A DNA stretch of 47,767 nucleotides from Candidatus Abyssobacteria bacterium SURF_5. Its GTDB lineage: Bacteria > Abyssobacteria > SURF-5. Both the position numbers and the translations under genes were made by a program. Position 1 is the stretch's first letter. The number at the start of each line of letters is the position of its first letter. The notes beneath the pieces are model-generated. The model made no database searches. It was not told the origin of the DNA and worked only from the letters and a program-made list of their open reading frames with translations. The stretch is taken from NCBI GenBank assembly GCA_003598085.1, contig QZKU01000048.1, forward strand, positions 1 through 47,767, in the 5' to 3' direction. Positions 1,598-43,378 of the stretch are shown one piece after another.

Positions 1598-2461
1598 ATG
1601 AACGACCTGCGCATTGCAGCGGTTGTTATGCAGTCCGGGTTCGGAGAAGTTGATGCAAACCTGGAAAAGATGAGACAGTTCGTGAGACAGGCATCGGCAT
1701 GTGACGCCGATCTTGTCTGTTTTCCAGAAATGAACATTACCGGATATGCATTGACGAAGAAAATGGAGCAATATGCCGAGCCGATCCCGGGGCCAAGCAC
1801 TCGACAAGTGCAGCGGATGGCCAGAGAATTCGGGATCGTCATCCTCGCCGGCTTGCCCGAGAAGACGGCGCGGGGATCTGTCGCGATCACGCAGGTTGTC
1901 GTGACACCGAATGGCCGTATGGGGAAGTACTGTAAACTTCATCTTTCGCGGGGCGAGCGGAAGTTTTTTGAGGGTGGCAACCGGATTCCGACATTCAGGC
2001 TCGGCAGGACCACTTTCGGGGTGCAGTTATGTTACGATGCGCATTTCCCGGAACTCAGCACACTGCTTGCGTTGAAGGGGGCGGAGGTCCTGTTTGTGCC
2101 GCATGCGTCGCCGCCTCCGGAATCGCCCGATCAGAAGCGCGGCCGGTGGCTGCGTTACCTTGCGGCCCGGGCATACGATAACAGCGTGTATCTGGTTGCC
2201 TGTAACCAGACTGGAGACGGCGGCGCAGGCATTAAATTCACCGGTGTCGCGCTGGTGCTGGACCCGCGCGGGGAAGTCCTGGGAGAGACTTCGGGCGAGG
2301 AAGAAAGAATGCTGATTGCGGACCTCAAAGCTGACGCTCTGGCAAAAGTGCGCAAGGCGAGAGTCGGCTTTTTCCTGGCCAATCGCAGGCCGGAACTGTA
2401 TGAGGGGCTTTCCGCTCACGCTATCAGGAAAATGGTCTGGAGAAAAGGGAGAAAAGTGTAG
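1598..2461 (+). CDS. Carbon-nitrogen hydrolase (nitrilase superfamily)
   Basis: A 287-residue protein with the complete nitrilase-superfamily triad: Glu44 in CFPEMNITGY, Lys113 in YCKLHLSRGE and Cys145 in VQLCYDAHFPE. Family members hydrolyse amides, nitriles or carbamoyl groups, or supply ammonia as the glutaminase part of synthetases. The substrate cannot be read from sequence. No signal peptide is visible, so it is probably cytoplasmic. It begins 15 nt after the dsrN stop, behind a GGAG-like site (1592-1596), and precedes dsrC by about 80 nt, so it is probably cotranscribed with the dsr genes. A role with DsrN in amide chemistry on sirohaem, or in ammonia handling, is inference from position only. 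Confidence 0.85.
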   Translation: MNDLRIAAVVMQSGFGEVDANLEKMRQFVRQASACDADLVCFPEMNITGYALTKKMEQYAEPIPGPSTRQVQRMAREFGIVILAGLPEKTARGSVAITQVVVTPNGRMGKYCKLHLSRGERKFFEGGNRIPTFRLGRTTFGVQLCYDAHFPELSTLLALKGAEVLFVPHASPPPESPDQKRGRWLRYLAARAYDNSVYLVACNQTGDGGAGIKFTGVALVLDPRGEVLGETSGEEERMLIADLKADALAKVRKARVGFFLANRRPELYEGLSAHAIRKMVWRKGRKV

Positions 2462-2542
2462 GGTGAAGGCAATTACGGACTGATATGGGATATTTTTCCC
2501 ATGAGGCAATGAAGGTGCTCATTTTCAGAAAGGAAAGAGAGA

Positions 2543-2860
2543 ATGGGATCAATCGTATTAGCGGGGAAAACATTTGACGTCGACGAAGATGGATTTCTTC
2601 AGAACCCGGAGCTGTGGGATGACGAGGTCGCCGCAGCTTTCGCACCCACTGAGGGAATTCAGGCTATGACGGACGAACATTGGAAAGTAGTCCATTACAT
2701 CCGCGACTACTACCTGAAATTCGGGGTTGCCCCTATGATTCGCAAGCTCTGCAAGGAGACCGGCTGCAATTTGAAGAAGATTTACGAGTTGTTCCCGTCA
2801 GGGCCGGCGAAAGGCGCTTGCAAGATTGCAGGTCTTCCCAAGCCGACGGGTTGCGTATAG
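2543..2860 (+). CDS. dsrC: DsrC: sulfur carrier / DsrAB trisulfide partner
   Basis: 105 residues, the usual DsrC length. It carries both functional cysteines of the swinging C-terminal arm: Cys93 and the penultimate Cys104 (ending TGCV), separated by ten residues as in genuine DsrC (TusE-type homologues lack Cys93). In sulfate reducers DsrC takes up sulfur during sulfite reduction by DsrAB to form a trisulfide between the two cysteines, which is then reduced through the DsrMKJOP complex. The motif MIRKLCKETG in the middle is typical. An AGGAAAGAGAG ribosome-binding region lies just upstream of the ATG. DsrK, encoded 2 kb downstream, is the expected redox partner. Confidence 0.97.
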   Translation: MGSIVLAGKTFDVDEDGFLQNPELWDDEVAAAFAPTEGIQAMTDEHWKVVHYIRDYYLKFGVAPMIRKLCKETGCNLKKIYELFPSGPAKGACKIAGLPKPTGCV

Positions 2861-3214
2861 GCGAAAGACTTATTGCTGGGATGCCGCGTTTCGAACAAGC
2901 GCGGTATCCCGGTGGTGCACCATCTTCCGCATGCCCCTTCTCTCCGGTGGCCAAGTTGCATACGGAGCAGCTCATCGGCTGCTGATTCATGATAACCCGG
3001 GAAGGGGTTATGCGGCGCCCCAAAGATGGAAAGGCGGCAGCTTCTGCGGCAGCCTTCGCAAAAGAGGTATCCTTATTGGGAGGTATTCCAGCCAAAAGGA
3101 ATTTTTCATCCCTTTAGGGGCAATTTGTACGACACGTTACTGCCGTGGTAACACACTGCGCGAAATACCAGTGGGAGGATTCTATGCCCCTGGTCGCAGC
3201 CGGTGACACATTTT
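2861..3214 (+). other. Intergenic region dsrC-RsbRD gene, with inverted repeats
   Basis: A 354-nt gap in an otherwise tight cluster. It holds a hairpin with 7-bp arms ATAACCC (2992-2998) and GGGTTAT (3005-3011) around a 6-nt loop, not followed by a U-tract, and a smaller inverted repeat GTTAC/GTAAC (3136-3140, 3148-3152). A strong GGGAGG (3173-3178) precedes an ATG at 3183 that opens a 22-codon frame overlapping the start of the next gene, a possible leader peptide. No convincing -35/-10 pair was found. It may hold the promoter or a processing site for dsrMKJOP. Confidence 0.4.
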
Positions 3215-3781
3215 ATGGATCTGAGAACGCTCCTCACGGAGAAACGCTCTGAAATCGTCGCAAAGTGGGCGCGACTGGTTTTTGAGACATATGCGCCGGA
3301 GACGTCTCGTTTTCTGAAAGGAGAAAAAGACCGGTTCGCTAACCCCGTGGGCGATGCTCTTACGCGGGGAGTGGAAGCGGTATACGATTATCTCCTAAGC
3401 GGAACTGATTCGGAGCAAGTATTACGGCATCTGGATGACATCATTCGGATAAAGGCGGTTCAGGATTTTACCCCGGCCGAGGCGCTTGATTTTCTCTTCA
3501 GATTGAAAGCGGTTGTGAGAGAGGAAGCAGATCCTTTTCTCCGGGAGAACGCGCTTTCCGTGCGGGAGTTGCTTGAATTTGAAACCAGGCTGGACAATCT
3601 GGCTCTTCAGGGATTTACGCTCTTTATGAAGTGTCGGGAGAAAATTTACGATCTGAAAGCAAGCCAGGTGAAGGACCGGACGTTTCGGCTGTTGAAAAGA
3701 GCGAATCTTGTCGTGGAGATCCCCGACCCCGAGGAGGGTCCCGGCGACGTGGAGAATATAAAGCGAGGTAAGGGTTCATGA
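3215..3781 (+). CDS. RsbRD N-terminal-like sensor domain protein upstream of dsrM
   Basis: A 188-residue soluble protein that resembles the RsbRD (RsbT co-antagonist) N-terminal domain, a helical globin-like sensor fold; a gene of this type directly precedes dsrM in several sulfate reducers. The diagnostic stretch is LLTEKRSEIVAKWARLVFET followed by FLKGEKDRFANPVGDAL. No catalytic motif or transmembrane helix is visible. I prefer the ATG at 3215 because homologues begin at this MDL; an in-frame GTG at 3203 is possible, and the nearest strong ribosome-binding site (3173-3178) is too far from either. The stop overlaps the dsrM ATG (ATGA at 3778), implying translational coupling. Function is unknown; a regulatory or assembly role for the Dsr membrane complex is inference. 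Confidence 0.75.
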   Translation: MDLRTLLTEKRSEIVAKWARLVFETYAPETSRFLKGEKDRFANPVGDALTRGVEAVYDYLLSGTDSEQVLRHLDDIIRIKAVQDFTPAEALDFLFRLKAVVREEADPFLRENALSVRELLEFETRLDNLALQGFTLFMKCREKIYDLKASQVKDRTFRLLKRANLVVEIPDPEEGPGDVENIKRGKGS

Positions 3782-4815
3782 AAATCTTCCTTCCCCTCAT
3801 CGCGGTTTTGGCGCTGGTAGGTATTGCACTCGCGGGGGTGGAACTGGCGAATCTGCAAGTATTTTTCGGGATTGTCATTCCCTATGCGGCGCTCGCCGTC
3901 TTTCTCGGCGGACTCGTATATCGGGTCTTGAAATGGGCGCGCTCGCCTGTTCCTTTCCGCATCACACTGTCGTGTGGTCAACAGAAAACGCATCCGTGGA
4001 TAAAGTCGAGCACCCTTGATAATCCGCACTCAACCGCAGGAGTCATCGGGCGGATGGCGCTTGAAATTCTTTTCTTCAGGTCGCTGTTCAGAAACACTCG
4101 GCTCGAGCTCAGGAAAGGGCCAAAGCTTTCCTATGAATGGGAGAAGTGGCTGTGGCTGGCGGCGCTCGCCTTCCACTACGCGTTCCTGATGATCCTTCTC
4201 AGGCATTTGCGCTTTTTTACCGTGCCGGTGCCCTTCTTCGTTAATGCGCTGGATCAGTTGGACGGATTCTTCCAGATCAGTGTGCCCGCACTGTATTTGA
4301 GTGATATCATTCTCGTGGCTGCGGCCACCTATCTGTTCCTGCGAAGAATCGTCATACCGCAGATCAAGTATATTTCGCTGCCGGCGGATTACTTCCCCCT
4401 GTTTCTGATTCTTGGGCTGGCGACTTCCGGCATCTTGATGCGCTATTTGCTGAGAGTGGATGTTGAAGCGATCAAGGAGCTCACGATAGGACTGGCTGCA
4501 TTCAGACCGGTTGTTCCCGCCGGAATCGGTTCGCTGTTCTACGTTCATCTGTTTCTCGTCAGCGTGCTGTTTGCATATTTCCCTTTCAGCAAGCTGATGC
4601 ATTTGGGGGGCATCTTCCTGAGCCCGACCCGGAACCTGGCGAACAATAACCGCATGCGCAGGCATATCAATCCCTGGAATTATCCTGTCAAGGTTCACAC
4701 TTATGATGAGTATGAGGAAGAGTTCAGGGACAAGATGCAGGCTGCCGGACTGCCTCTGGAAAGAGAGGCTTCCGGTGATTTGAAACCGGCCGGGCTGCCT
4801 TTGGAAAAGGAGTGA
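3778..4815 (+). CDS. dsrM: DsrM: cytochrome b subunit of DsrMKJOP
   Basis: A 345-residue integral membrane protein of the NarI-like dihaem cytochrome b family. Hydrophobic segments lie at the N-terminus (LPLIAVLALVGIALAGV), around residues 30-50 and in four further helices, including WLWLAALAFHYAFLMILL and SLFYVHLFLVSVLFAYFPFSKLMH, whose histidines are likely haem ligands. DsrM exchanges electrons between the menaquinone pool and DsrK. The cytoplasmic tail ends with an imperfect duplication (AAGLPLERE and PAGLPLEKE, 14 residues apart), which looks like a short local repeat unique to this copy. It is coupled to the preceding gene by ATGA; dsrK begins 2 nt after its stop. Confidence 0.95.
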   Translation: MKIFLPLIAVLALVGIALAGVELANLQVFFGIVIPYAALAVFLGGLVYRVLKWARSPVPFRITLSCGQQKTHPWIKSSTLDNPHSTAGVIGRMALEILFFRSLFRNTRLELRKGPKLSYEWEKWLWLAALAFHYAFLMILLRHLRFFTVPVPFFVNALDQLDGFFQISVPALYLSDIILVAAATYLFLRRIVIPQIKYISLPADYFPLFLILGLATSGILMRYLLRVDVEAIKELTIGLAAFRPVVPAGIGSLFYVHLFLVSVLFAYFPFSKLMHLGGIFLSPTRNLANNNRMRRHINPWNYPVKVHTYDEYEEEFRDKMQAAGLPLEREASGDLKPAGLPLEKE

Positions 4816-4817
4816 CA

Positions 4818-6446
4818 ATGTCAGATATTCCAGAAAGCATTCCAAAACCGGAACAGCTGGGAGTGATCGATCAGCAGTTGCCTCGCAGCGACTGGATGGA
4901 TACGCCTGTTGTATTCAAACACGGCAGCTACTGCTACAGCGCAAAATCCAAATTCATGAGCTATCTGGACCTGCCGAACCCGCGGGACTGGTCGCCGATG
5001 GATAAGGATTGGAAACTGCCGAATGACTGGCAAAGGATTATCCACGAGGGCCTTCGCGAGAGACTGTCCAAGTATCGTTCGCTCAAGGTGTTCATGGACA
5101 TCTGCGTAAGGTGCGGCGCGTGTGCCGATAAATGTCACTTCTTCATCGGTTCAGGCGACCCCAAGAACATGCCGGTCCTCAGGGCCGAGCTTCTGAGGTC
5201 CGTCTATCGAAAAGATTTCACTACCGCCGGAAAGATTCTCGGGAAGATTGCGGGCGCACGGGAACTGACGGTGGACGTGCTGAAGGAATGGTACTACTAC
5301 TTCTATCAGTGCACGGAATGCCGCCGCTGCTCTGTTTTCTGCCCATACGGGATCGATACCGCCGAGATCACCATGCTCGCGCGCGAGCTGCTGAATCTGG
5401 TCGGCCTGAACATCGGGTGGACGATCGAGCCGTGCGCCAACTGCTTCCGCACCGGCAATCATCTTGGCATCCAGCCGCACGGATTCGCAGACAGTATTGA
5501 GTTTGCCGTTGACGAGCTCGAGGAGATCACTGGGATTCGGGTCGACGCCCCGATAAACAAGAAGGGCGCGGAGATCCTCTTTATCACGCCCTCAGCCGAT
5601 TATTTTGCCTCTCCGCATTATTACACGCTGCTGGGGTATCTCGCCCTGTTCCACGAGATCGGACTCGACTACACGTGGAGCACGTTTGCCTCCGAGGGCG
5701 GCAACTTCGGCTTGTTCACCTCGCACGAGATGATCAAGCGCTTGAACGCAAAAATGTATGCAGAGGCGAAGCGACTGGGCGTGAAATGGATTCTGGGCGG
5801 AGAGTGCGGCCACATGTGGAGGGTCGTGCACCAGTACATGGATACGATGAACGGCCCGGCCGATTTCCTCCAGGAGCCGGTTTCGCCTATTACCGGGACG
5901 AGGTTCGAGAATGCGCGGTCCACGAAAATGGTCCACATTACGGAATTCACGTCGGACCTGATCCGGAATAACAAACTGAAACTCGATCCCAGCCGGAACA
6001 ATCACTGGAGAGCCACATTCCACGATTCCTGCAATCCGGCCCGAGCGCTCGGCCTGTTCGAGGAGCCAAGATACGTTATCCGCAACGTCTGCAACAACTT
6101 CTTCGAGATGCCCGACAATACCATCCGCGAACAAACCTTCTGCTGCGGCAGCGGCGCGGGTCTGGGCAACGATGAAAACATGGAGATGCGCCTGCGGGGC
6201 GGGCTTCCGCGCGCGAACGCCGTCAGGCACGTGCACGAGAAGCACGGCGTCAATATTCTGCTCTGCATGTGCGCCATCGATAAAGCGACCCTGCCGCCGT
6301 TGATGGAGTATTGGGTGCCAGGAGTCGAGGTGGGCGGTATTCATGAGCTGGTGGCAAATGCGCTGGTGTTAACGGGCGAAAAGGAGAGGACGACCGACGT
6401 ACGCGGCGAGCCCCTCATGAAGGAGGAGGACACGAAGGATGTATGA
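4818..6446 (+). CDS. dsrK: DsrK: HdrD-like catalytic iron-sulfur subunit
   Basis: A 542-residue cytoplasmic-face protein related to heterodisulfide reductase HdrD. Two [4Fe-4S] ferredoxin motifs are seen: CVRCGACADKC (Cys 96, 99, 102, 106) and CTECRRCSVFC (Cys 165, 168, 171, 175). The CCG-type site for the special catalytic [4Fe-4S] cluster includes Cys405 in HDSCNPAR, Cys442-Cys443 in CCGSGAG and the later CMC. DsrK is the proposed site of DsrC trisulfide reduction. I choose the ATG at 4818 because AAAAGGAG ends 5 nt before it; the GTG at 4812 overlaps that site. Its end overlaps dsrJ by 8 nt. Confidence 0.96.
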   Translation: MSDIPESIPKPEQLGVIDQQLPRSDWMDTPVVFKHGSYCYSAKSKFMSYLDLPNPRDWSPMDKDWKLPNDWQRIIHEGLRERLSKYRSLKVFMDICVRCGACADKCHFFIGSGDPKNMPVLRAELLRSVYRKDFTTAGKILGKIAGARELTVDVLKEWYYYFYQCTECRRCSVFCPYGIDTAEITMLARELLNLVGLNIGWTIEPCANCFRTGNHLGIQPHGFADSIEFAVDELEEITGIRVDAPINKKGAEILFITPSADYFASPHYYTLLGYLALFHEIGLDYTWSTFASEGGNFGLFTSHEMIKRLNAKMYAEAKRLGVKWILGGECGHMWRVVHQYMDTMNGPADFLQEPVSPITGTRFENARSTKMVHITEFTSDLIRNNKLKLDPSRNNHWRATFHDSCNPARALGLFEEPRYVIRNVCNNFFEMPDNTIREQTFCCGSGAGLGNDENMEMRLRGGLPRANAVRHVHEKHGVNILLCMCAIDKATLPPLMEYWVPGVEVGGIHELVANALVLTGEKERTTDVRGEPLMKEEDTKDV

Positions 6447-6825
6447 CGGCGGAAAAATCATTGCCGGGTTGGTCATCTTCCTCGGTGTGGTGACTTTCCC
6501 GTTCTGGTACACTCAAGCAAATGAAGAAGCCATTGAGAAACCGCAGTTATTGCTTCCGGCAGACGAGACCGAATGCGTGGAACCCACCGCTTACATGCGG
6601 GCATCTCACATGCAGATGCTCAACGAATGGAGAGACTTCGTCGTTCGGGAGGGACAGGCGACGTACCTGTCCAGCACCGGAAAGATGTACGAGATGAGCC
6701 TCACCCGCACCTGCATGAAGTGCCACACGAGCCGGCAGGAGTTCTGCAACAAGTGTCATGCGTATTCCGGCGTGAGCACTCCGTACTGCTGGGATTGTCA
6801 TGTTGAGCCGAAGGAGAGTGCCTGA
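6439..6825 (+). CDS. dsrJ: DsrJ: triheme cytochrome c
   Basis: 128 residues with one N-terminal membrane anchor (residues about 7-23) and a periplasmic domain with three CXXCH haem c motifs at residues 92-96 (CMKCH), 103-107 (CNKCH) and 117-121 (CWDCH). Cys46, in DETECVEP, is the conserved extra cysteine that in the Allochromatium DsrJ has been implicated as an unusual haem ligand. DsrJ is the periplasmic electron-transfer part of DsrMKJOP. The ATG sits 8 nt inside the dsrK end, after an AAGGAGGAGG ribosome-binding region. The stop overlaps the dsrO ATG. Confidence 0.96.
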   Translation: MYDGGKIIAGLVIFLGVVTFPFWYTQANEEAIEKPQLLLPADETECVEPTAYMRASHMQMLNEWRDFVVREGQATYLSSTGKMYEMSLTRTCMKCHTSRQEFCNKCHAYSGVSTPYCWDCHVEPKESA

Positions 6826-7595
6826 TGAAGAGCCGAAGGAGCTTTCTGAAGATATCCGGGGCCTGCCTTCTCGGGTTGGGAGTGAAACCCGTGCTCAATG
6901 CCTTCGCGCAGGCGGAGCGGATGGAGATCGCGCCGAATCCGAACGCGCTTCGCGCCGGGCGCTGGGCTCTGGTGGTCGATATCACAAAGTGCCGGGACGA
7001 TTGCACCGACTGCATAAACGCCTGCAATCGCGCTCACAATATTCCCGATCTTGGAAGAACGAAAGAGGAAGTGAAATGGATATGGAATGAATCCTACGAG
7101 CACGCTTTCCCGGGCGTTGAGCACGAGTTCGTCGAGGAGCGCGTCAAGCATCAGCCGTTCATGGTGCTGTGCAACCATTGCGATAATCCGCCGTGCGTGC
7201 GCGTGTGCCCGGTTCAGGCCACCTGGAAGCGCGAGGACGGCATCGTAATGATGGACTTCCATCGCTGTATCGGGTGCAGGTGTTGTATGGCCGCGTGCCC
7301 GTATGGATCGAGGAGCTTCAACTGGACCGATCCGCGCCCGTATATTCCCGAGGGGAGGATGAATCCGGACTTCCCGACGAGAACCAAGGGAGTTGTCGAG
7401 AAATGCAATTTCTGCGTCGAGAGGCTCGCAAAGGGACTTCAGCCGGCATGCGTCGAAAGCTGCAGCTCGGGCGTGCTCACCTTCGGAGATCTGGATGATC
7501 CCAATTCTGAGGTGAGGAAAGTCCTTGGAGAGCGTTACTCCATTCAGCGCAAACCCGAGCTTGGAACCAGGCCGAGAGTGTACTATATCCTGTGA
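6825..7595 (+). CDS. dsrO: DsrO: periplasmic ferredoxin-like iron-sulfur subunit
   Basis: 256 residues. The N-terminus is a Tat signal, SRRSFLK followed by a hydrophobic run ([10 protein letters not shown]), so the folded protein is exported with its clusters. Cysteine groups typical of DMSO-reductase B-type subunits follow: [40 protein letters not shown] and [11 protein letters not shown] with a final CVESC. DsrO passes electrons between DsrP in the membrane and DsrJ. Its ATG overlaps the dsrJ TGA (6823-6825); dsrP follows after 7 nt. Confidence 0.96.
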
Positions 7596-7602
7596 GGGAG
7601 CC

Positions 7603-8757
7603 ATGTTGGAAAAAGCTTTTTACGGAAGTCGAAGTTATTACGCGTGGATTCTGTTCTTGCTCATTGTAATCGGGGCGGGCGCCGGCTGCTACGCATATCA
7701 GTTGGTTGACGGCCTTCGCATCACCGGCATGGGCAGAGACATCTCGTGGGGGCTGTACATCGCCCAACTCACCTTCCTGGTTGGCGTGGCGGCGTCGGCG
7801 GTGATGGTCGTCATTCCGTATTATCTGCATAATTACAAAGCATTCGGCAAGATCACCGTTCTGGGAGAATTTCTGGCGGTTTCGGCCGTCACCATGTGCG
7901 GGCTCTTTGTTATCGTCGACCTCGGCACGCCGGCGCGCGCCTTCAACCTGATCCTGTATCCGACCCCCAACTCGATCCTGTTCTGGGATATGATCGTGTT
8001 GAATATGTATCTTGTGCTCAACATCGTGATCGCCTGGAACGTTCTTTCGGCGGAGCGCAAGTCGACGCCGCCTCCCGGATGGGTGAAGCCGCTCATCTAC
8101 CTGTCGATCCCCTGGGCCGTGAGCATTCACACCGTGACCGCTTTTCTCTATGCGGGTCTTCCGGGAAGGCATCTGTGGCTGACCGCAATTTTGGCCGTCC
8201 GCTTCCTGGGATCGGCATTTGCCGCAGGTCCTTCGCTCCTCATACTCCTGTGTCTGCTCGTGAGGAAGGTGAGCAAGTTCGATCCGGGCCGCGAGGCCAT
8301 CCAGAGCCTGGCAAAGATCGTGACGTACGCGCTTATCGCCAGCATATTCTTTGTCGGACTCGAATTCTTTACCGCATACTACAGTCAGGTTCCCGGCCAT
8401 ATACACAGCCTCGAGTACCTGTACTTCGGTCTTGAGGGCCACGCGAAGCTGGTCCCCTGGATGAGGATCTCGGCGCTGCTCGCGATTGTCGCGCTTGTTT
8501 TCCTCGTGAATCCTGCAACGCGGCGGAATGAGAAAACGCTGGCTGTCGCTGCCGCACTCACCTTCATTTCGCTCTGGATCGAGAAAGGGCTTGGCTTGGT
8601 ACTGGCCGGCTTCATTCCCAACCCATTCGAGCATATTACCGAATATTCGCCGACGGCGCCGGAACTCATGATCACGTTCGCTATCTATGCAATTGGATTG
8701 CTGATCCTGACGGTGCTGTATAAGGTGGCCATCTCCGTAAAGGAAGAAGCCGCTTAA
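7603..8757 (+). CDS. dsrP: DsrP: NrfD-family integral membrane quinone-interacting subunit
   Basis: 384 residues, about ten transmembrane helices, NrfD/PsrC family. The early signature [17 protein letters not shown] is typical of DsrP. With DsrO it forms the second quinone-linked module of the complex. The ATG at 7603 is chosen because GAGGGA lies 3-8 nt before it and the protein then starts MLEKAFYGS, as in homologues; the longer in-frame reading from 7525 would lie inside dsrO. It is the last gene of the dsr string: a strong terminator begins 14 nt after the stop. Confidence 0.96.
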
Positions 8758-8771
8758 GCTGAAAGGAATTG

Positions 8772-8810
8772 GCCCCGCCTGTTTTTTCGCAACCGGCGGG
8801 GCTTTCTCTT
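8772..8810 (+). terminator. Rho-independent terminator after dsrP
   Basis: Perfect 8-bp arms GCCCCGCC (8772-8779) and GGCGGGGC (8795-8802) around a 15-nt loop, followed by TTTCTCTTT. It closes the dsr transcription unit and separates it from the signalling operon. Confidence 0.88.
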
Positions 8811-8865
8811 TGTTTGCTGGGGGTCCCAAGCAACCGCTGGCAACCGCACATACTTTTAAATGCTG

Positions 8866-8874
8866 TGATATAAT
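8866..8874 (+). promoter_or_regulatory. Candidate extended -10 promoter of the sensor operon
   Basis: TGA-TATAAT (8866-8874) is a perfect extended -10 element 45 nt before the GTG at 8920. No good -35 hexamer lies 16-18 nt upstream (around 8846-8852). It follows the dsrP terminator, which fits an independent promoter for the three-gene signalling operon. Confidence 0.5.
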
Positions 8875-8919
8875 CCATTTTGAGAAGGAAACGCTCGATC
8901 GGCCTTTTAGGGGACATCT

Positions 8920-9930
8920 GTGAGCGCCAGGAGTCGGATGGGTAAGGTTCTCGGTGAAAAATCTCGAGATTGGCTGTGCCGGCGCGCCGCCGAGTTTTCA
9001 AGCATTCCGGTGGAAGACCTGAAGGTTGTCAGCGACACAACCGAATTCATGAATATCCACCGGGGACACATCCTCGAATTGGACGGGCGGCATTTCCTGG
9101 TGACAGGCTACATCTACGAGGCTCGCTTCGGTCTCAGTGACGAGCCGAAATACTGGGTGAAAAAGGCGATAGATCTGGAAGCGGGGAGCCAGCAGATCGT
9201 CAAGCTTTCGCACCGTGAGGAGTTTCACATGCGTATCGGCCGCCTCAGGATTCGCTGCTACCGGAATCCGCACAAGGAAGCGCAGGTGCTTGAACTTGTC
9301 CGCGGGAACCCCAACTTCATGCAGGGGTATTCTCTGTTCGACGGGCGCGGGAACGAGGTGAGAGTGGTCGATATTATCCGCGGGAAAAGCATTTACGACG
9401 TCATCTTGAACATGAATACGACTCATGAGGAATACTTCTATGGCCCGTTTCCCGGAATTCTCAGAAAAGTCGCGGGCTGCATCGCATCTCTGCAGTTCCT
9501 GCACGATCACAATCTTTGCCACGGCGATATCCGGAACGACCATATCCTGATCGAGCAGGACACCGGGTTGTACCGGTGGATCGATTTCGACCTGACTCAG
9601 GATTTCTCCGACCTCGATATCTGGAGCGTCGGCAATATCCTGCAATTCTGTGTGGGAATGGGGATGAAGACGTTCCGGGAAGTTCTCCAATCAGATGATT
9701 ATCCGGCATCTGTAAAAAATGATCTGTGCGCCGATGACGCCTCGGCCTTTTACGAGCACAGGATCATGAACCTGCAGAAACTTTTCCCATATATTCCCGA
9801 CAGCCTTAACGACATCCTGCTTCACTTCGCAGTGAATACCAACCGATTTTACACCTCGATTTCTCAGATCGTTTCGGATATCGACGCTACGCTCGAGGAA
9901 ATGTCCTCTCCGACGGATACCAGGCCATGA
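8920..9930 (+). CDS. Protein-kinase/aminoglycoside-phosphotransferase-fold protein
   Basis: 336 residues. The catalytic loop reads HGDIRNDHIL (His201, Asp203), and IDFD a little later serves as the metal-binding DFG/DFD segment, so the protein has the ATP-grasping kinase fold of the APH/RIO/Ser-Thr kinase clan. A glycine-rich loop is not obvious, and the N-lobe lysine (VKKAIDLE or IVKLSHRE) is uncertain. The substrate is unknown. The GTG start at 8920 has AGGGGA 5 nt upstream. The stop overlaps the ATG of the histidine kinase gene (ATGA at 9927), so the two are translationally coupled, which suggests that it acts in the same signalling pathway. No transmembrane segment is visible. Confidence 0.75.
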   Translation: MSARSRMGKVLGEKSRDWLCRRAAEFSSIPVEDLKVVSDTTEFMNIHRGHILELDGRHFLVTGYIYEARFGLSDEPKYWVKKAIDLEAGSQQIVKLSHREEFHMRIGRLRIRCYRNPHKEAQVLELVRGNPNFMQGYSLFDGRGNEVRVVDIIRGKSIYDVILNMNTTHEEYFYGPFPGILRKVAGCIASLQFLHDHNLCHGDIRNDHILIEQDTGLYRWIDFDLTQDFSDLDIWSVGNILQFCVGMGMKTFREVLQSDDYPASVKNDLCADDASAFYEHRIMNLQKLFPYIPDSLNDILLHFAVNTNRFYTSISQIVSDIDATLEEMSSPTDTRP

Positions 9931-11450
9931 AACTGCTGAAGCTGAAGAAGAGAATCGGAATCGGTGTCCGCCTGGCTATTATGGTGGCGGTGCTGATCGT
10001 GCTTTCCACCGGTTCCTTTGCATTCTTCAGCCTGATGAAGCAGCGCAGCGAAGCGATGGAACTGTTTGTCCACAACTCGATCAATATGTGCCGGTCACTC
10101 GAGCGCATCCTGCGGTTCAGCATGCTCGAAAACCGTCGCGACGAGATACAAGCGGCAATCCAGCAGATCGCCAAAGAAGACGATATCGACGGCGTGACGC
10201 TGGTGAGCCATCGCGGAGATATTGTTTACGGGGATGCGTTACAGGACCCCGAAAAAGTGACTATCGGGGACAACCGCTGTTCCGGCTGCCACGGCAACGG
10301 CTCGGAGCAGCCGCTTCCGCGGCTGGCTGAGCCGGCAGAGGTTCGGCTGCTGCATGATGCGAAGGTGGCGGAAGTGAGCCTGCCGATCTATAATGATCCG
10401 GCCTGCGCGAATGCGGCCTGTCATGCTCATACGCCGGCCGAAAGCGTGTTGGGCATCATGCAAATGAACATTTCCTATGCGCAAACAAACGAGATGTTGA
10501 ACCGCTCGTATTTTCAGCTCATGGCGCTTTCCATCGTGATCGCCCTGGTCACTTCGCTCATCGTCATGGCGCTCATCCGGCGCTGGGTGTCCAACCCGGT
10601 GAAGGACCTGCTCGACGGCACCCGCCGTGTTGCCGAAGGCGAGATCGGCCATATCATTCCGGTCGGCGAGGCCGAGCTCGGCGGGCTGGCGCGTGCTTTC
10701 AACAAGATGCAGGAGAAACTGCTCTCCAGCCAGCGACAACTTGTCACCGCCGAGAAGCTCGCGTCGATTGGAAAACTCGCTGCGTCGGTCGCGCACGAGA
10801 TCAACAATCCCTTGACCGGCATCTTGACGTTTGCGGAGGATCTGGCGGAGAATGCCGATCACAGCGATCCGCGCCGGTCCGATTTCGAAGTGATCCGGCG
10901 GCAGGCCGTCCGCTGCCGGGAGATCGTTCGGCAGTTGCTGGATTTCTCGCGCCAGGAGAAACCGAATCTGCGGCCGGTGAATGTCAACGAGGTCCTGGTG
11001 CATACGATCGAGTTTATCTCCAAACAGGCGATCTTCAGGAACATCGTGATCACGACTGACCTTGAGAACGATCTGCCTCCGGTGATCGCGGACCCGATTC
11101 AGATAGAGCAGGTGATGCTCGATCTGCTTGTGAATGCCGCTGAGGCCATGTCCGACGGCGGAAACATATTCATTTCTTCGCTGTCGCATCAACGTTCGCA
11201 TGAGGTCGAGGTGGTCGTGCGGGATACCGGGCCGGGCATTGCGGAGGAGAATCTTCCGAGAATATTCGAGCCCTTTTTCTCCACGAAGGGCGGCAAATCA
11301 ATGGGAATCGGCCTCGCAGTCAGTTGGAACATAATTAATCAACATGGCGGCAGGCTCGAGGTCGAGTCGAAGCTGGGTGAGGGAGTCACTTTCCACATCA
11401 TGATGCCTTGGGGAAAGGCGGCGCCGGCCTCGGCCGACGCGGTCGTATGA
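9927..11450 (+). CDS. Membrane sensor histidine kinase with haem c-type sensor domain
   Basis: 507 residues. Order: transmembrane helix (about 14-36); extracytoplasmic domain with a canonical CSGCH haem c motif at 118-122 and a second, spaced variant CANAACH (CX4CH) at 160-166; second helix (about 195-213); HAMP domain; dimerisation/phosphoacceptor domain with His290 in VAHEINNPLTG; and a HATPase domain with DLLVNAAEAM, DTGPGI, FEPFFSTK and GIGLA. The haem motifs suggest sensing of redox state, NO, CO or another haem ligand outside the membrane. It lies just downstream of dsrMKJOP and is coupled to the kinase-fold gene before it; the response regulator follows. Control of the dsr or related energy genes is inference. 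Confidence 0.93.
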   Translation: MKLLKLKKRIGIGVRLAIMVAVLIVLSTGSFAFFSLMKQRSEAMELFVHNSINMCRSLERILRFSMLENRRDEIQAAIQQIAKEDDIDGVTLVSHRGDIVYGDALQDPEKVTIGDNRCSGCHGNGSEQPLPRLAEPAEVRLLHDAKVAEVSLPIYNDPACANAACHAHTPAESVLGIMQMNISYAQTNEMLNRSYFQLMALSIVIALVTSLIVMALIRRWVSNPVKDLLDGTRRVAEGEIGHIIPVGEAELGGLARAFNKMQEKLLSSQRQLVTAEKLASIGKLAASVAHEINNPLTGILTFAEDLAENADHSDPRRSDFEVIRRQAVRCREIVRQLLDFSRQEKPNLRPVNVNEVLVHTIEFISKQAIFRNIVITTDLENDLPPVIADPIQIEQVMLDLLVNAAEAMSDGGNIFISSLSHQRSHEVEVVVRDTGPGIAEENLPRIFEPFFSTKGGKSMGIGLAVSWNIINQHGGRLEVESKLGEGVTFHIMMPWGKAAPASADAVV

Positions 11451-11463
11451 GACGGAGATGCGT

Positions 11464-12243
11464 ATGGCTGAACGCGTGAAAGTGCTCGTCGTTGACGATG
11501 AAGAGATCGTTCTTCAAAGCGTGCGGAAAGTGCTGAAGTCGGATGAGGAGCATGAGTTCGTGATAGATTCGGTGCTCTCGCCGGATGAGGGACTGCGCCT
11601 GCTGGATGCAGGGAAGTATGATGTTGTGGTGACCGACCTGATGATGCCGGGAATCGACGGCCTCCAGCTTATCGACCGCGTTCGGCAGGTCGACCGCGAC
11701 GCGCGGATCATCATGATCACCGGCTATGCCACGATGCGAACCGCCCTGCAGGCATTGCGCAAGGGCGCATTCGATTACATCGCGAAGCCGTTCACGAAAG
11801 AGGAGCTGCGGACCGTTGTGAAGAACGCGGCACAAGTGAAGAAGGTGTCTGAGGGCGCCGAAGAACCGGTCGAGGTCGCGGCCACCGACGAGATTCGCAG
11901 CTTCTTCAACCAGACCTACGCGCGGATGCTTCCCGATGGCACCATGTATTTCGGCGTTGAACCCGGTTTTCTTGCCACGATTGGCGCGCCGTTGAGCATC
12001 GAGATATCAAAAATCGGGGAGACCGTTCCCCAAGGGTTGCCCTTTGCCACCATAACCGGCTCGAATATGCGCGTGTTCAATCTGCGCGCTCCGTTCAGCG
12101 CGAGAATCGTCGAAATCAATGAAAAGGCTGTGCGAGATTTCTCGATCGTCCGCGAGGACCCTCGCGGCGAGGGCTGGCTGCTGCATGTGATCCCGACGGA
12201 TTTCCAGAATGAGTTGGAAAATATCACGCCGCTTCAAGAATAA
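11464..12243 (+). CDS. Response regulator with a GcvH-like (lipoyl-lysine-less) output domain
   Basis: 259 residues from the ATG at 11464; GGAG at 11454-11457 is 6 nt away, whereas the ATG at 11458 touches it. Residues 1-120 are a receiver domain: DDEE acidic pocket, phosphoacceptor Asp58 in VVTDLMMPGID, and the lysine in IAKPFTKEEL. Residues about 145-250 match glycine-cleavage H protein: a DGTMYFGVEPGFLATIGAPL segment, then RAPFSARIVEINE and REDPRGEGWLLHVIPTD. In GcvH the lipoylated lysine sits in ESVKAAS before APVSG; here that segment reads TGSNMRVFN, so the lysine is absent. No DNA-binding or AAA+ domain is present, so the output is probably protein-protein interaction or ligand binding. 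Confidence 0.88.
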   Translation: MAERVKVLVVDDEEIVLQSVRKVLKSDEEHEFVIDSVLSPDEGLRLLDAGKYDVVVTDLMMPGIDGLQLIDRVRQVDRDARIIMITGYATMRTALQALRKGAFDYIAKPFTKEELRTVVKNAAQVKKVSEGAEEPVEVAATDEIRSFFNQTYARMLPDGTMYFGVEPGFLATIGAPLSIEISKIGETVPQGLPFATITGSNMRVFNLRAPFSARIVEINEKAVRDFSIVREDPRGEGWLLHVIPTDFQNELENITPLQE

Positions 12244-35962: not shown

Positions 35963-38398
35963 TTATCCTTCGACGGGGCTTTCCGCCTTCTGTCCTTGCA
36001 GGATTCGCTGTGTTTCGGCTATCTCCTCGGGTGTAACGGCTTTGCGCAGGCGCTCCATGCGCTGCATCACTTCCTGGAACCGCACGCCTTCGGCGGCGCT
36101 GATCCACTCGAGCGCCAGTCGTTCCTTGCGGATTCCGAGCTTGTCCATCTTCTTCCACAACTTGCCGATGCGGCGCTCCGTCCAATGGTTCGCATTTATA
36201 TAATGGCAGTCGCCGATATGGCAGCCGGAAACCAGAACGACCGGCGCCCCTTTCTCGAAGGCGCGCCACACGAATTTCTCATGAACGCGTCCCGAGCACA
36301 TCGTGCGGATCAACCGGCCGTTGGACGGATACTGAAGCCGCGACACTCCGGCGAAATCGGCGCCCGCGTATGAGCACCAGTTACAGGCGAAAACCGGGAT
36401 CCGCTCCGCCGGCTGCTCTTCAAGGATGGCATCGATCTGCGCCTCGATCTGATCGTCGGTAAAATGATGCATCTCGATGGCGCCAGCCGGACATTCGGCC
36501 GCGCACGTCCCGCAGCCCGCACAGGCGGCGGTCGTGACAACAGCGGGCTTTTTCGCGCGCGTATCGACATCGATGGCATTATACGGGCATACTTTCGCGC
36601 ACAGGCCGCACGAGGTGCACAAATCCGGATTGACTTCCGCCGTGATCGACTCGACCTTCAGGCGTCCTGGATTCATCAGCCGCATCGACCGGGCCGCCGC
36701 GGCGGACGCCTGCGTCACCGATTCGCGGATATCCTTCGGTCCGTCGGCGCAGCCGGCGAAAAAGACGCCGCGCGTGGCGGAATCGACCGGCTGAAGCTTG
36801 GGATGCGCTTCGAGGAAGAACCCTTCGGACGTGCGCTGCAGCGTCAGCATCTCCTGCACAATGTTCATGTCCTCCGGCGGCTGGAGGGCAACCGCCAGCA
36901 CCACCATTTCCACCCGGTGTGTTTCGAGTTCGTTGCTTGCGGTATTCTCGACGGTCAGAATCAGGTCGCGCGTCTTCGGGTCTTCCTTGATTGAGCCGGG
37001 AAGCCCGCGTATGTAGCGCACGCCCGTCCCTTTACTCCGCCGGAACAACTCCTCGAACCCCTTGCCGAACGCCCGAATATCGATATAAAACACTTTCACC
37101 TCGATATCGGGATAGTGCTCCTTCAACATGAGCGTGCTCTTGATCGTGTTCATGCAGCAGATGTTCGAGCAATAGGGACGCCCGCGCGTCTGCGAGCGCG
37201 AGCCGACGCATTGGATGAACGCGATAGATTTCGGTTGTCGGCGATCCGTGAGGCGAACTACCTCTCCCTTGGTCGGGCCCCCCGCATTGATCAGACGTTC
37301 CAACTCGATACTCGTGACGACGTTCTCATACCTGGTGTATCCGTACTCGTCAAGGATCGTCGGATCATAAATATCGATGCCGGTGGCGACAATTATTGTG
37401 CCGACGTCGAATTCGAGCATTTCATCATTCATGTTGAAGTCGATGCAGTGTTTCTCGCACTTCAAGATGCATTTGCCGCAGATTATCGGATTGTGGCCGA
37501 GACAATTCTTCATGTCGACGACATATGCGGAAGGAACCGCCTGGGGAAACGGAGAATAGATCGCCCGGCGCGTGTTCAGCCCCATGTTGAATTCATCCGG
37601 AACGGTGACAGGGCAATCCTTAATACAGTCGCCGCAGGCGGTGCATTCGCCTTCCTTTACGTACCGCGCCCGTTTGAGCACCTGCACGTGGAAGTTGCCG
37701 ACGTACCCCGTGACCTTCTTGACTTCGCTCAGGGTGAGCAGCGTTATGTTTGGATGCCGACCGGCATCAGTCATCTTCGGACCGAGTATTCATATGGAGC
37801 AGTCCATGGTTGGAAACGTCTTATCCAACCTGGCCATGATCCCTCCAATGCTCGGCTCCTTCTCCACGAGGATGACCTTATAGCCGGAATCGGCCAGATC
37901 GAGCGCGGCCTGTATGCCGGCGATTCCGCCGCCGATCACCAGCGTCGAGCGCCGGATCGGGACTTCGGTCTCCGCCCGCGTCTTCAAGCGGCGCGCGCGC
38001 GCGACCGCCGATCGGACGAGGTCGCCCGCCTTGAGGGTTGCGCCTTCCCGATCGTGGCCGTGGACCCAGGAACACTGCTCGCGCAGGTTCGCCATTTCGA
38101 GCAGGTACGGATTGAGGCCGGCCTCGCTGATGCACTGCCGGAACGTCGGCTCGTGCAGTCTCGGAGAGCATGAGGCGACCACGATCCGGTTCAAGCCCTC
38201 TTCCTGAATGTCCTTCTTAATCAGGTTCTGGCCCGGCTCCGAACACAGGTAGCCGTCATGTCGCGCGAGAACGACGTCGGGAAGCTGTTTTGCACGCTCG
38301 GCCACAGCCTCGCAATCGACCACGCCCGCAATATTCAACCCGCAGTGGCACACGTACACGCCGATTCGGCACGTCTCATTTGTTCCCGTTTCTTGCAT
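35963..38398 (-). CDS. hdrA: HdrA-MvhD fusion flavoprotein, selenoprotein (Sec203 at TGA)
   Basis: Read through one in-frame TGA (37792-37790) this is an 811-residue protein; without it there are two pieces with 15 nt between them in the same frame. The N-terminus [18 protein letters not shown] and REQCSWVH are HdrA hallmarks; [19 protein letters not shown] binds FAD. The TGA falls in [19 protein letters not shown], where HdrA normally has Cys. Iron-sulfur motifs follow at 252 ([11 protein letters not shown]), 594 ([11 protein letters not shown]) and 626 ([11 protein letters not shown]). From about 665 an MvhD domain is fused: [21 protein letters not shown] and GCHIGDCHY. HdrA carries the flavin that bifurcates or confurcates electrons. 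The ATG at 38398 has AAGGAG upstream; HdrD lies 14 nt before. Confidence 0.9.
37753..37768 (-). promoter_or_regulatory. Putative bacterial SECIS hairpin
   Basis: On the minus strand GATGCC-GGTC-GGCATC forms a perfect 6-bp stem with a GGUC loop; the loop starts 28 nt after the TGA. E. coli fdhF SECIS also has a GGUC apical loop, and bacterial SECIS loops lie about 16-37 nt downstream of the UGA. SelB would bind here to insert selenocysteine. Confidence 0.75.
37790..37792 (-). other. Recoded UGA: selenocysteine codon 203 of hdrA
   Basis: In-frame TGA at the place of a conserved HdrA cysteine; both sides align continuously to HdrA without a frame change. selA, selB, selC and selD are not in the window. 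Confidence 0.85.
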
Positions 38399-38412
38399 TC
38401 CGCTCCTTCCCC

Positions 38413-39582
38413 CTATTTCCCCGACCATTCGATATGGTCCGCCAGCACCGACACCAAATCCCGTATCTCCAACTTCAACGAACCGCGGCTGTAAGGGTCC
38501 CGCATCGTGCACGTCAGGTGGATCATGCATTTCGGACAGGCGGTAATCAATGTCTCGGCTCCTGTCGATTTCGCCTCCTTCAGGCGCTGAACCTGGACCC
38601 GCTTGGAATAGGCGTCGCAGTTTATGAACGCGTTGTTGCCGCAGCAGAGCGCGCTGTGTTTTGAATTCTCCATTTCCCGAAGCCTCGCCTGCGGAATCAA
38701 CGACAGCAGCGTGCGCGGCGTATCATAACATCCGGATATCCTGCCAAGGCGGCACGGATCCTGGAACGTCAGCTTGCGCTTGAACGGCTTGAACGCGACG
38801 CCACCCTTCTTTATTTCTCGCTCGAGGAGGTGAATCAGCAACGTTACTTTTATGTCGAAGCCCGAAATGACCTTCGGCATGTATGTGCCGAGCGTATGGT
38901 AGCATTCAGGACACGTCACCACGACTTCTTCAACACCTGCCGCTTTGAATTCCTCATAGTTGAGGCGGCACAAGGTTTCAAAGTTTTCCTGGTCGCCAGT
39001 CCACAGCAGATCATGACCGCAGCATCGCTCATTTGCAAGAAGCACCGGTTCTATTGAGAGAAAATTCAGAAGACGCACGCTGTCGCGGATGATTGAAAGC
39101 GTGTCAACCTCGATCCCGGAGAAAAAAACGTCGAAATACGGGGCGCAGCCGGTAAAAAAGGCGATAGGCCCATGAGTCGCCGTCTTTACCCGCGGATCCA
39201 CCCATCCCAGTCTCTCCTGCTGAAGTTCGGGCGACGTCATCATTCGCATCCACGAGTGAAGCGCGCCGTCATGAGCGCGATATCCTCTCAGCCCCTTCGA
39301 TTTTGCCAGCAGCGTGCGCATCTCCAGGATCAGATGACTGATATCGACGCCCGAGGGGCAGCGCTCTTCGCACAGTCCGCACGTCAGGCATTCCCACACG
39401 GAGCTCTCGATAAAGGTCTCGTCCTCGCGCTCGGCGATCAGTTTGTGCGCCAGGAGCCGAGGCGAATACTCTTTTCCTGCAATCAGGCGCGGACACGACG
39501 CGGAACATTTCCCGCACTCCAGACACTGGTGGAGCGAGTGCTTGCGGATTATTTCGTCTATTCTTTTATCGAAGTCGTCCAC
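38413..39582 (-). CDS. HdrD-type (HdrC-HdrB fused) heterodisulfide reductase-like subunit
   Basis: 389 residues. N-terminal HdrC-like part: two [4Fe-4S] motifs, [13 protein letters not shown] (from residue 20) and [14 protein letters not shown]. The C-terminal HdrB-like part has two CCG domains: [18 protein letters not shown] and CPECYHT in the first; [18 protein letters not shown] and CPKCMIHL in the second, sites for noncubane [4Fe-4S] clusters that split disulfides. The natural disulfide is unknown; DsrC trisulfide or CoM-like thiols are possible. Start is GTG at 39582, inside the end of the MvhD-like gene (25 nt overlap), with a weak AGGA site. It ends 14 nt before hdrA, so it probably forms a complex with HdrA. 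Confidence 0.88.
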
Positions 39583-40007
39583 GATGCTTCTCTTTCCTGG
39601 CGTGGTTTCGCTTCATTCGGGCCCAGCGCTTCTATCCGGGCGGCAAAATCCCAAAGAGCCTTTACAAATTCCTCTTTTTCGTGCGTGGCAAAATTCCGCT
39701 CAACAAGCCGCTTTTGTCTGATCCCCAGAAGACGAAGGAGCTTGCGCACTCGCTCTACGTTGACATGCCCGACTTCCGGTCCCGGTCCATACCGGCAATC
39801 CTCATCCTTGCATTCGAGCAAAATGACGCCATCGGCGCCGTATTCGAACGCCCGGAGAATGAGCGCCTGATTGATTCGGCCGATACACATCACCCGCACC
39901 AATCGGAAATTGCGGGGGATCTCCAGCTTGGCCATGCCGGCGGCATTATAGCAGGCATATGGGCTCCAGTTGCAGCAGATTCCCAGCAGATTGACCTGTC
40001 CCATCAT
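39558..40007 (-). CDS. MvhD-like iron-sulfur (delta) subunit
   Basis: 149 residues of the MvhD/FlpD family, which holds a [2Fe-2S] cluster and connects an electron input module to HdrA. Motifs: LGICCNWSPYACYNAAGMAK, RVMCIGRINQALILRAFEYG and LLECKDEDCRYGPG. Compared with the MvhD domain fused to HdrA(Sec) ([19 protein letters not shown]), the first motif has lost the second Cys of CNWC and gained another in YAC, and GCH has become ECK; the cluster ligands are therefore partly moved. Two ATGs (40007, 40004) follow GGAG; the first overlaps the upstream stop (ATGA). Located between the two HdrA-like proteins, it may couple them. Confidence 0.87.
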   Translation of the reverse strand: MMGQVNLLGICCNWSPYACYNAAGMAKLEIPRNFRLVRVMCIGRINQALILRAFEYGADGVILLECKDEDCRYGPGPEVGHVNVERVRKLLRLLGIRQKRLVERNFATHEKEEFVKALWDFAARIEALGPNEAKPRQEREASWTTSIKE

Positions 40008-43000: not shown

Positions 43001-43378
43001 GAGCGGGCAGACCTCCATGCAGCGGCCGCAGCCGGTGCAGAGATCATAATCAATGTACTGCGGATTCTGCGTGACAACCGCCCGGATGCCGACCGGCGAT
43101 TGTTCGAGCGATTCCAGCCGGGCGCCGGTCAGCGGCGTGACCAGCGGATGGCGCGTGACGCGCAAATAGAGCGGGCGAAACTGGAAGTTGATGTCGTCCG
43201 GCCATTCGGAAAAGGTCTCGGTTCCGCCCGGCAACTTCAGAAAATGCGGCGCGTTCGTCACCCACACGACCGGAATGCCCGATTGCGCCAGGTCTTCGGC
43301 CGCTTTGAGCGCGCCGTAGCCCGAGCCGACGAGCAGGATCGCCTTCTTCGGCTGTTTCGATGCTTTCCGCGGCGTCAT
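40004..43378 (-). CDS. HdrA-like / GltD-type flavoprotein fusion with ferredoxin domains
   Basis: 1124 residues. Order: short nucleotide-binding start (LLVGSGYGALKAAEDLAQSG); ferredoxin motif CTGCGRCMEVCP; Fer4_20-like region with CRVNCPLGVNVQAYM and CGRVCHHPCEASC; GltD/NfnB-type FAD and NAD(P) domains (VAIIGSGPAGLTAAHFLNRA, VVIGAGNSAMDAARTALRLG, FAAGDVVTGPSTV); an HdrA-like half with FICNCNGAM and a second, degenerate flavin site (ILGGSEVGIS, Ser in place of Gly); and two C-terminal [4Fe-4S] motifs, CRGCGRCAEICPFNAI and CVGCGGCVGRCPVTAM. It could move electrons between NAD(P)H, ferredoxin and the Hdr subunits. ATGA couplings link it to korC (43378) and the MvhD-like gene. Confidence 0.88.
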   Translation of the reverse strand: MTPRKASKQPKKAILLVGSGYGALKAAEDLAQSGIPVVWVTNAPHFLKLPGGTETFSEWPDDINFQFRPLYLRVTRHPLVTPLTGARLESLEQSPVGIRAVVTQNPQYIDYDLCTGCGRCMEVCPLNNSDHPPLSRSPAYCPSRALELNKRKLAECRVNCPLGVNVQAYMALAAASRFEEALRVIKEDNPLPGICGRVCHHPCEASCRRKELDEPIAIRDVKRFLADYEAEHGPVKLDSAKSDHNGERVAIIGSGPAGLTAAHFLNRAGFSVTVFEALPEAGGMLRAGINSFRLPRKVLDAEVLAIAGSGVEIRTGHKIDSAAALLKQGFKAILLATGTHEDLRLNIPGEDFEGIEHCVAFLSRMNLYKEGRVKARTVVIGAGNSAMDAARTALRLGAEEVTILAIERENEMPAHPREIREAREEGVKFVLGAAPVEFEGAANQVNKIICRPAHWSEPDSQGARRIAYDSDETFAIEAETVIVAIGQRPHLKEFGLAQEGFLTDKAGRIQAGDDFSTSIPGVFAAGDVVTGPSTVIGSMASGRKAAAFMIEHLTRNRSQFSELTAESRGVGEYVEISEDIPKQSRPEMAQRQPKVRRRDFEEVDFGLTPEQAVAEAKRCLQCGACCECRVCESVCTDIGAIDHFREGRRFEFSCPSVIIADSQEIGSIDHVEGKRIFHLSDLKAEIDLVDVLVSGSSAAGRAMTEAAPLRVTAIPNEVEPPEPAGDERLGIFICNCNGAMAPKAVMDRIMDLAARVPSVAHSEIIFSACHPRGADQIARSVREKRLNRVILGSCVCCPLEFQCISCNDQRTRARIHLFDRLGLPRNHFEMINIKDHLLPGGQTDDEIFEKAREILKGALIRVHLLGRLRQGITEIGKNIMILGGSEVGISCAMNLSLQGFHVRLIHKCTTAGGARLPDFIARRPIDGKIGRSITHVEEAEIQEISGHLGDFRVSLVSGGVHHTWRASVICLTDENVLPLAIQENMMGLKKLYRYNFAFFHTPQLGLYRVLPRTLKRVNAFEAGTALAAEVATVTAEAFLKDHELSPRVDPELCRGCGRCAEICPFNAIKMVSSQHGIYTAEVIRHNCVGCGGCVGRCPVTAMDIPYFSNQLLEDIVMKTFSGER

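Follow-up and report, generated by a model that had tools for sequence, protein, structure and literature searches.

Downstream of the dsrMKJOP genes of Candidatus Abyssobacteria bacterium SURF_5, a sensor histidine kinase, which judging by its sequence probably holds two covalently bound haems, is paired with a response regulator whose receiver is joined to a domain resembling GcvH, the H protein of the glycine cleavage system (PF01597). A search with Pfam found no DNA-binding domain in this regulator, and the circuit formed by the kinase and its receiver-GcvH partner is new. The motifs, the fold, the homology to haem-c sensors, the gene order and the architecture of the partner were established by computation in the window, i.e., the whole stretch of DNA that was analysed (47,767 nucleotides of contig QZKU01000048.1), and in related genomes. 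For the question of how sulfate and sulfite respirers sense redox state and tune DsrMKJOP, the locus offers a sensor with two predicted haems whose partner is defined and whose gene order is conserved. In listings of open papers, a literature search on dsrMKJOP with two-component regulation returned general genome papers only, and no paper turned up on a receiver fused to GcvH or to an NADH dehydrogenase part, or on GcvH in connection with NrfD complexes.

Gene order around the dsr genes

The following genes, from dsrC to the regulator, are all on the forward strand:
2543 to 2860, forward strand, dsrC-like gene (PF04358, E 3e-39)
3778 to 8757, forward strand, dsrM, dsrK, dsrJ, dsrO and dsrP (NCBIfam NF038037, NF045796, NF038038, NF045797 and NF045798, each above cut-off)
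8920 to 9930, forward strand, protein-kinase-like protein of 336 aa (PF00069, E 1.2e-6, 28.6 bits, missing the curated cut-off of 31.7)
9927 to 11450, forward strand, sensor histidine kinase of 507 aa (ORF with ATG start, Pfam)
11458 to 12243, forward strand, response regulator of 261 aa, receiver plus GcvH-like domain (PF00072, E 3.3e-29; PF01597, E 7.8e-9)

DsrO is an Fe-S protein and DsrP an NrfD protein according to Pfam. A first-pass annotation of this DNA had placed the kinase right after dsrMKJOP. The neighbourhood is as described, but the immediate adjacency is not, since the protein-kinase-like gene sits between dsrP and the kinase, which it overlaps by 4 bases. The regulator gene starts seven bases 3′ of the kinase. 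The order from dsrC to the regulator is identical in all three genomes of the phylum set (the window genome, L016 and L017), all of which carry the sensor, and the nearest named relative is Candidatus Abyssobacteria SURF_17, with 60% identity over the sensor. L017 is titled Candidatus Poribacteria and carries the same operon, and the matching genome is placed in the family of the window genome.

The peptides HGDIRNDH and WIDFD of the protein-kinase-like gene are kept in the same three genomes. The former has a His at the place of the usual catalytic-loop Asn, which is the residue of the protein kinase consensus. Immediately 5′ of dsrM, an RsbRD_N domain protein (window 3203-3781) is also kept in L016 and L017. 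Further along the window, on the reverse strand (35963-46035), lies a cluster of Hdr-like Fe-S flavoproteins and 2-oxoacid oxidoreductase-like genes, as read from the ORFs alone.

Two haem c motifs in the sensor kinase

The following features were located in the kinase:
10122 to 10124, forward strand, Met66, candidate distal ligand of the core haem (aligns with GSU0935 Met60; Met in 59 of 62 homologues)
10278 to 10292, forward strand, first haem c motif CSGCH, additional site (aa 118-122; in 39 of 62 homologues)
10404 to 10424, forward strand, second haem c motif CANAACH (CX4CH), core site (aa 160-166; aligns with the single CXXCH of 3b42)
10428 to 10430, forward strand, His168 of the CHxH signature, candidate axial ligand (CHxH is linked to core spacing)
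10572 to 10721, forward strand, HAMP domain (aa 216-265; PF00672, E 2.1e-10)
10770 to 11408, forward strand, HisKA and HATPase_c kinase core (PF00512, E 1.6e-15; PF02518, E 2.3e-22)

The protein is a complete HAMP sensor histidine kinase, with a first transmembrane segment, a periplasmic sCache-type domain, a second transmembrane segment, HAMP, HisKA with its phospho-acceptor His (aa 282-344) and HATPase_c (aa 389-494), the last three all above the Pfam cut-offs. The two haem c motifs lie between the two transmembrane segments and before the HAMP-kinase part, as in GSU0599-like two-haem sensor kinases. No Pfam family matched the periplasmic part, neither PF11845 (threshold E 0.1) nor PF21563, and with NCBIfam the kinase gave only equivalogs of kinases below cut-off. 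A search of the window genome with the whole protein gave 87 matches, mostly to the kinase core of unrelated kinases, hence the sensor domain alone was used.

Only six of the 507 residues are Cys, four of which sit in the two motifs, and with the kinase's own composition a CXXCH is expected by chance about 0.002 times per protein. An alignment of 24 sensor domains (A2) shows no variation, in any row, at Met66 or at any haem residue of the two motifs; because the rows were found with two peptide patterns covering Met66 and C160, these two residues are partly selected, while C118, C121, H122, C165 and H166 were left untouched by the patterns. The alignment was drawn from 27 loci, excluding L036 and L039 (near copies of L038) and L041 and L042 (partial, with one motif each). 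Since the motifs are conserved across homologues, they are not a product of chance, and the initial reading of one CXXCH and one CX4CH in the periplasmic domain of this ORF is thereby confirmed.

A second set comprised 62 homologues, namely those matches that came with loci: 30 loci from 118 Nitrospirota genomes and 32 loci from 60 Desulfobacterota-type genomes (two overlapping draws), in both cases part of longer match lists. The phylum names are those suggested by named records at the sample centres, and at least three homologues (L043, L157 and L185) come from places that A2 also covers. All 61 readable homologues have the core motif, C-X2to5-CH, L049 being left out of this count because it ends at a contig end. 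The first CXXCH is found in 39 of the 62 (Nitrospirota 12/30, Desulfobacterota-type 27/32). Conservation of both motifs in homologues, proposed beforehand as a check, thus holds for the core and in part for the first motif, and homologues that keep the domain while losing a motif do exist for the first (23 of 62) and in no readable case for the second.

The two sites are linked through the spacing of the core. Its cysteines are separated by three to five residues in 36 of 38 members with the first motif vs 1 of 23 without it (Fisher p 2.7e-13, kinship ignored), and CX4CH is the spacing in 31 of the 38 readable two-motif members, so that the attachment signal described at first as uncommon is the usual one inside this sensor family. 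Other spacings were seen as well, CX5CH in L047 and L165 and CX3CH in L031, L051, L161 and L171. The CHxH signature accompanies 35 of the 37 core motifs with spacing X3-X5 and none of the 24 with X2. His168 had been considered as a ligand of the added haem, an assignment that was dropped: the residue tracks the widened core spacing, and since L050, which lacks the first motif, also has a widened core of the CHxH type, His168 cannot be assigned to the added haem. On a tree of the family, the first-motif label needs 3 changes vs 18.6 with shuffled labels, the tree having been built with the motif columns included and with a long branch leading to the window sequence. Because of motif conservation, spacing linkage and the tree, predicted one-haem and two-haem sensors are best described as two parts of one family, the window kinase being of the two-haem sort.

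The A2 profile also matches the pentahaem cytochrome c nitrite reductase NrfA (E 1e-5) over positions 50-135, which include the first motif; the match may be chance or the trace of a cytochrome-derived insert. For haem attachment, the genome has two Cytochrom_C_asm genes above cut-off, and it encodes DsrJ as well as haem proteins with 11 and 5 motifs beside a paralogue of the kinase. CX4CH is matured by the ordinary Ccm machinery, as in cytochrome c3.

Fold of the sensor domain and its solved relatives

An AlphaFold2 model of aa 1-223 of the kinase (pLDDT 80.9) has the sCache fold, with helices at aa 12-67 and 185-222. The sensor domains of WalK, CitA, KinD and DctB match it at Z 10-14, as expected of a Cache fold (WalK, Z 13.8, 2.1 Å over 133 residues; CitA, Z 11.3, 3.3 Å over 118). 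With Foldseek, the haem-c sensors GSU0935 and GSU0582 were retrieved at E 3.3e-3 and E 0.064 with poor superposition, which may be because both crystal forms are swapped dimers, as stated in the accessible part of PMC8396549. In profile searches, the 24 sensor domains of A2 match the same two haem-c structures, GSU0935 (3b42) at E 0.0028 and GSU0582 (3b47) at E 0.0092.

The alignment to 3b42 shows which site is the core one. Chain His110 is the haem His, i.e., His144 in the numbering of PMC8396549, and chain Met26 corresponds to Met60 and aligns with Met66 of the window. Since the single haem motif of GSU0935 aligns with the CX4CH, the latter is the core and the CXXCH the addition, and the idea that CX4CH is the odd, added site was overturned. 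In the available sections of PMC8396549, Met60 and His144 ligate the haem of GSU0935, Met60 taking the distal position on one haem of the crystal and held to bind in the reduced form. Two haem sites in the window kinase, as had been suggested, are therefore well supported by homology, through 3b42 and 3b47, the core alignment, the first-motif subgroup and the cytochrome c assembly genes. A shared core at CX4CH and an addition at CXXCH also give a guide for the design of mutants.

A receiver fused to a GcvH-like domain

The first-pass annotation had passed over the partner of the kinase, which is the unusual part of the system. A structural model of the regulator matches receivers and H proteins, and its C-terminal domain was delimited as follows:
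11917 to 12213, forward strand, GcvH-like domain with Met replacing the lipoyl lysine (alignment, profile)

In a profile comparison, this domain matches the H protein 3tzu at E 1.7e-15. The lysine that accepts the lipoyl group in H proteins is replaced by Met in the window and by Gly in L079, and Lys is absent from the lipoyl position in all receiver-GcvH fusions inspected. Because the regulator has no recognised DNA-binding domain, docking is its likely output, and because the GcvH-like domain lacks the lipoyl lysine, a docking role is suggested rather than that of a carrier. The regulator may thus exert direct control of respiration.

Receiver-GcvH fusions in other genomes

Strong GcvH-like matches (E <= 1.2e-22) were found in 17 of the 118 Nitrospirota genomes, all of them receiver fusions without Lys at the lipoyl position. 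All 17 genomes fall among the 54 with DsrK (hypergeometric 3.4e-7), a link confounded by lineage because DsrK is encoded in 45 of 47 sensor-positive Nitrospirota genomes irrespective of haem number, including 17 of 18 whose locus lacks the first motif. Among the 198 Desulfobacterota-type genomes, receiver fusions were found in two, G160 and G197, among the best matches fetched; both adjoin haem-motif kinases and both genomes lack DsrK. The idea that the whole system depends on DsrK was consequently dropped, given the lineage confounding and these two fusions.

NADH- or hydrogenase-type genes (NuoF/HndC or NuoG/HndD) are present in 16 of the 17 Nitrospirota stretches fetched around fusions. In 14 of the 17, there is a second fusion, of a receiver with a 2Fe-2S thioredoxin-like domain of the NuoE/HndA type (PF01257, E 2e-48 in L038, which is the same place as L074 and L151); one such fusion is L038:14533-15471, and in the 14 stretches HndB/HndC/HndD-type genes mostly follow. 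A two-motif haem kinase accompanies the fusion in four stretches (G125, G016, G113 and G003) and is seen in none of the other 13. In G003, dsrK and the two-motif kinase share a contig at a distance of about 10 kb, and in the genome of L020 (a Kryptoniota record, G008) about 21 kb separate dsrK from the two-motif kinase.

Haem kinases near NrfD-type complexes

The window genome carries a paralogous two-motif kinase (G000:C86, L193:8309-15940), next to which it encodes an NrfD protein, the 11-motif cytochrome and three proteins of the GcvH-like type. In five Desulfobacterota-type genomes (G132, G139, G153, G156 and G177), a two-motif kinase, a sigma-54 regulator, an NrfD protein and GcvH-like proteins occur together; these five and G160 were chosen for having both search matches on one contig and at most 7 kb apart, which gives at least 6 of the 24 sensor-positive genomes among 59. 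The stand-alone GcvH-like proteins appear to be membrane-anchored, as read from hydrophobic N-termini in L024 and L030, and were not called dead because a Lys is often found one place off the lipoyl position. A rule that fits these loci places a two-haem sCache kinase and a GcvH-like protein beside a membrane complex of the NrfD type. This complex is DsrMKJOP in the window, where the GcvH-like part is the output domain of the regulator.

The family also reaches loci of another kind. In L032 (Geobacteraceae; 2168-10729), cytochromes with 7 and 12 motifs and a probable b-type cytochrome lie between a two-motif kinase and a two-motif protein of 282 aa, a layout resembling that of the cbcBA-omcQ region, where the neighbouring regulator is called BccR. 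L032 showed neither dsr genes nor a regulator fused to GcvH. For CbcBA, the part of PMC12307469 that was available gives a working potential near -0.2 V.

Proposed mechanism and alternatives

The explanation that we favour, and that seems to us slightly more probable than not, is that the two-haem sCache kinase reads redox state or NO and that the GcvH-like domain of the regulator docks on an enzyme of energy metabolism. The core haem would be attached at the CX4CH, with His166 as proximal and Met66 as likely distal ligand, and a second haem at the CXXCH. The redox state and the distal ligand of the haem would depend on the pool of periplasmic electron carriers that DsrMKJOP serves, or on NO, and the departure or binding of Met66 would move the rod formed by the second transmembrane segment and HAMP and so change the autophosphorylation of the kinase. 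Phosphate would then pass to the receiver of the 11458 product, and the lipoyl-less GcvH-like domain of the phosphorylated regulator would bind or leave an enzyme of energy metabolism, for which the Dsr/Hdr-type machinery nearby is the first candidate. If the regulator acts by docking, a periplasmic redox signal would be linked directly to a respiratory enzyme.

We put forward tentatively, with distinctly less than even confidence, that the two-component system steers respiration without transcription: the two-haem sensor would read the carrier pool of an NrfD-type quinone/cytochrome complex, here DsrMKJOP, and the disabled H-protein domain of the phosphorylated regulator would dock at the cytoplasmic face of Dsr, Hdr or electron-bifurcating enzymes. 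In the Nitrospirota the same idea might be found twice in a row, the second receiver being fused to a NuoE-type 2Fe-2S subunit, a proposal we regard as possible and somewhat doubtful. A class of response regulators with output domains borrowed from redox enzymes would follow if this non-transcriptional reading were true.

As to the signal, redox state and nitrogen oxides, both named in the first-pass annotation, are plausible from the characterised relatives, while sulfur oxides, named with them, found no support. The kinase could be a sensor of NO proper, its core haem binding periplasmic NO and guarding the sulfite-reduction machinery against nitrosative stress. In the accessible text of PMC12889525, the sCache_heme-HAMP protein of P. 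azotoformans releases NO slowly and has spectra like those of NO sensors, and GSU0582 and GSU0935 bind NO with loss of Met60 in what is available of PMC8396549. However, the NO-binding sCache_heme domains have one haem, the same portion of PMC8396549 proposes that the Met-ligated relatives switch by redox-linked ligand change, and no NO-related gene was recognised with Pfam among the ten window proteins between 2543 and 12243, hence we consider a dedicated NO sensor unlikely.

Docking, the output that we prefer, has to be weighed against ordinary two-component control of gene expression, in which the GcvH-like domain would only stabilise the protein passively, or another regulator would have the receiver as its phosphate sink. 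At other loci, kinases of the family are paired with CheY-like and sigma-54 regulators, and the frequent adjacency of the latter, an ordinary transcriptional output, counts against docking. On the other hand, the cognate regulator has no DNA-binding domain that Pfam could find, and receiver-GcvH fusions recur beside respiratory genes in three groups of genomes, which leaves control through transcription with perhaps one chance in four. That a single haem is held, with the CXXCH or the CX4CH empty or occupied by an Fe-S cluster or zinc, is improbable: the homologues without the first motif would manage with the core haem alone, but where the first motif occurs it is complete in its three haem residues and its carriers cluster coherently on the tree, and the Cys-Cys-His order is that used by the solved relatives 3b42 and 3b47.

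Comparison with known systems

The closest solved relatives, GSU0935 and GSU0582 (3b42 and 3b47; PF21563, Mcp40H-20_sensor), resemble the kinase in having a periplasmic sCache-like domain before HAMP, with a haem c motif at the same place. They differ from it in having one haem, a CX2CH motif and a chemotaxis output. We infer from the family name that PF21563 was built on these two proteins; the window kinase has no match to it, while among its relatives L028 and L032 fall below the cut-off and L041 above it. The sCache_heme/DUF3365/Tll0287 family (PF11845) shares the Cache fold, into which a haem c motif is inserted, and is defined by one canonical CXXCH, unlike the kinase with its CX4CH core and one extra CXXCH. 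In the accessible part of the preprint that gives this one-haem group its present name, sCache_heme (PMC12889525), the HAMP-linked member is NO-sensor-like and the stand-alone member redox-like, and a word search of that part found no two-haem terms.

Sensors with two haem c motifs are already on record, and the kinase joins that known type. The available sections of PMC8396549 describe GSU0591 and GSU0599, with the signature CX2-4CH, and those of PMC3831638 describe Adeh_2011 and Adeh_3383; going by these descriptions, all four are like the kinase in carrying two c-haem motifs in a signal protein. The output domain of its partner resembles GcvH in both fold and sequence and is set apart from it by the loss of the lipoyl lysine and by its fusion to a receiver.
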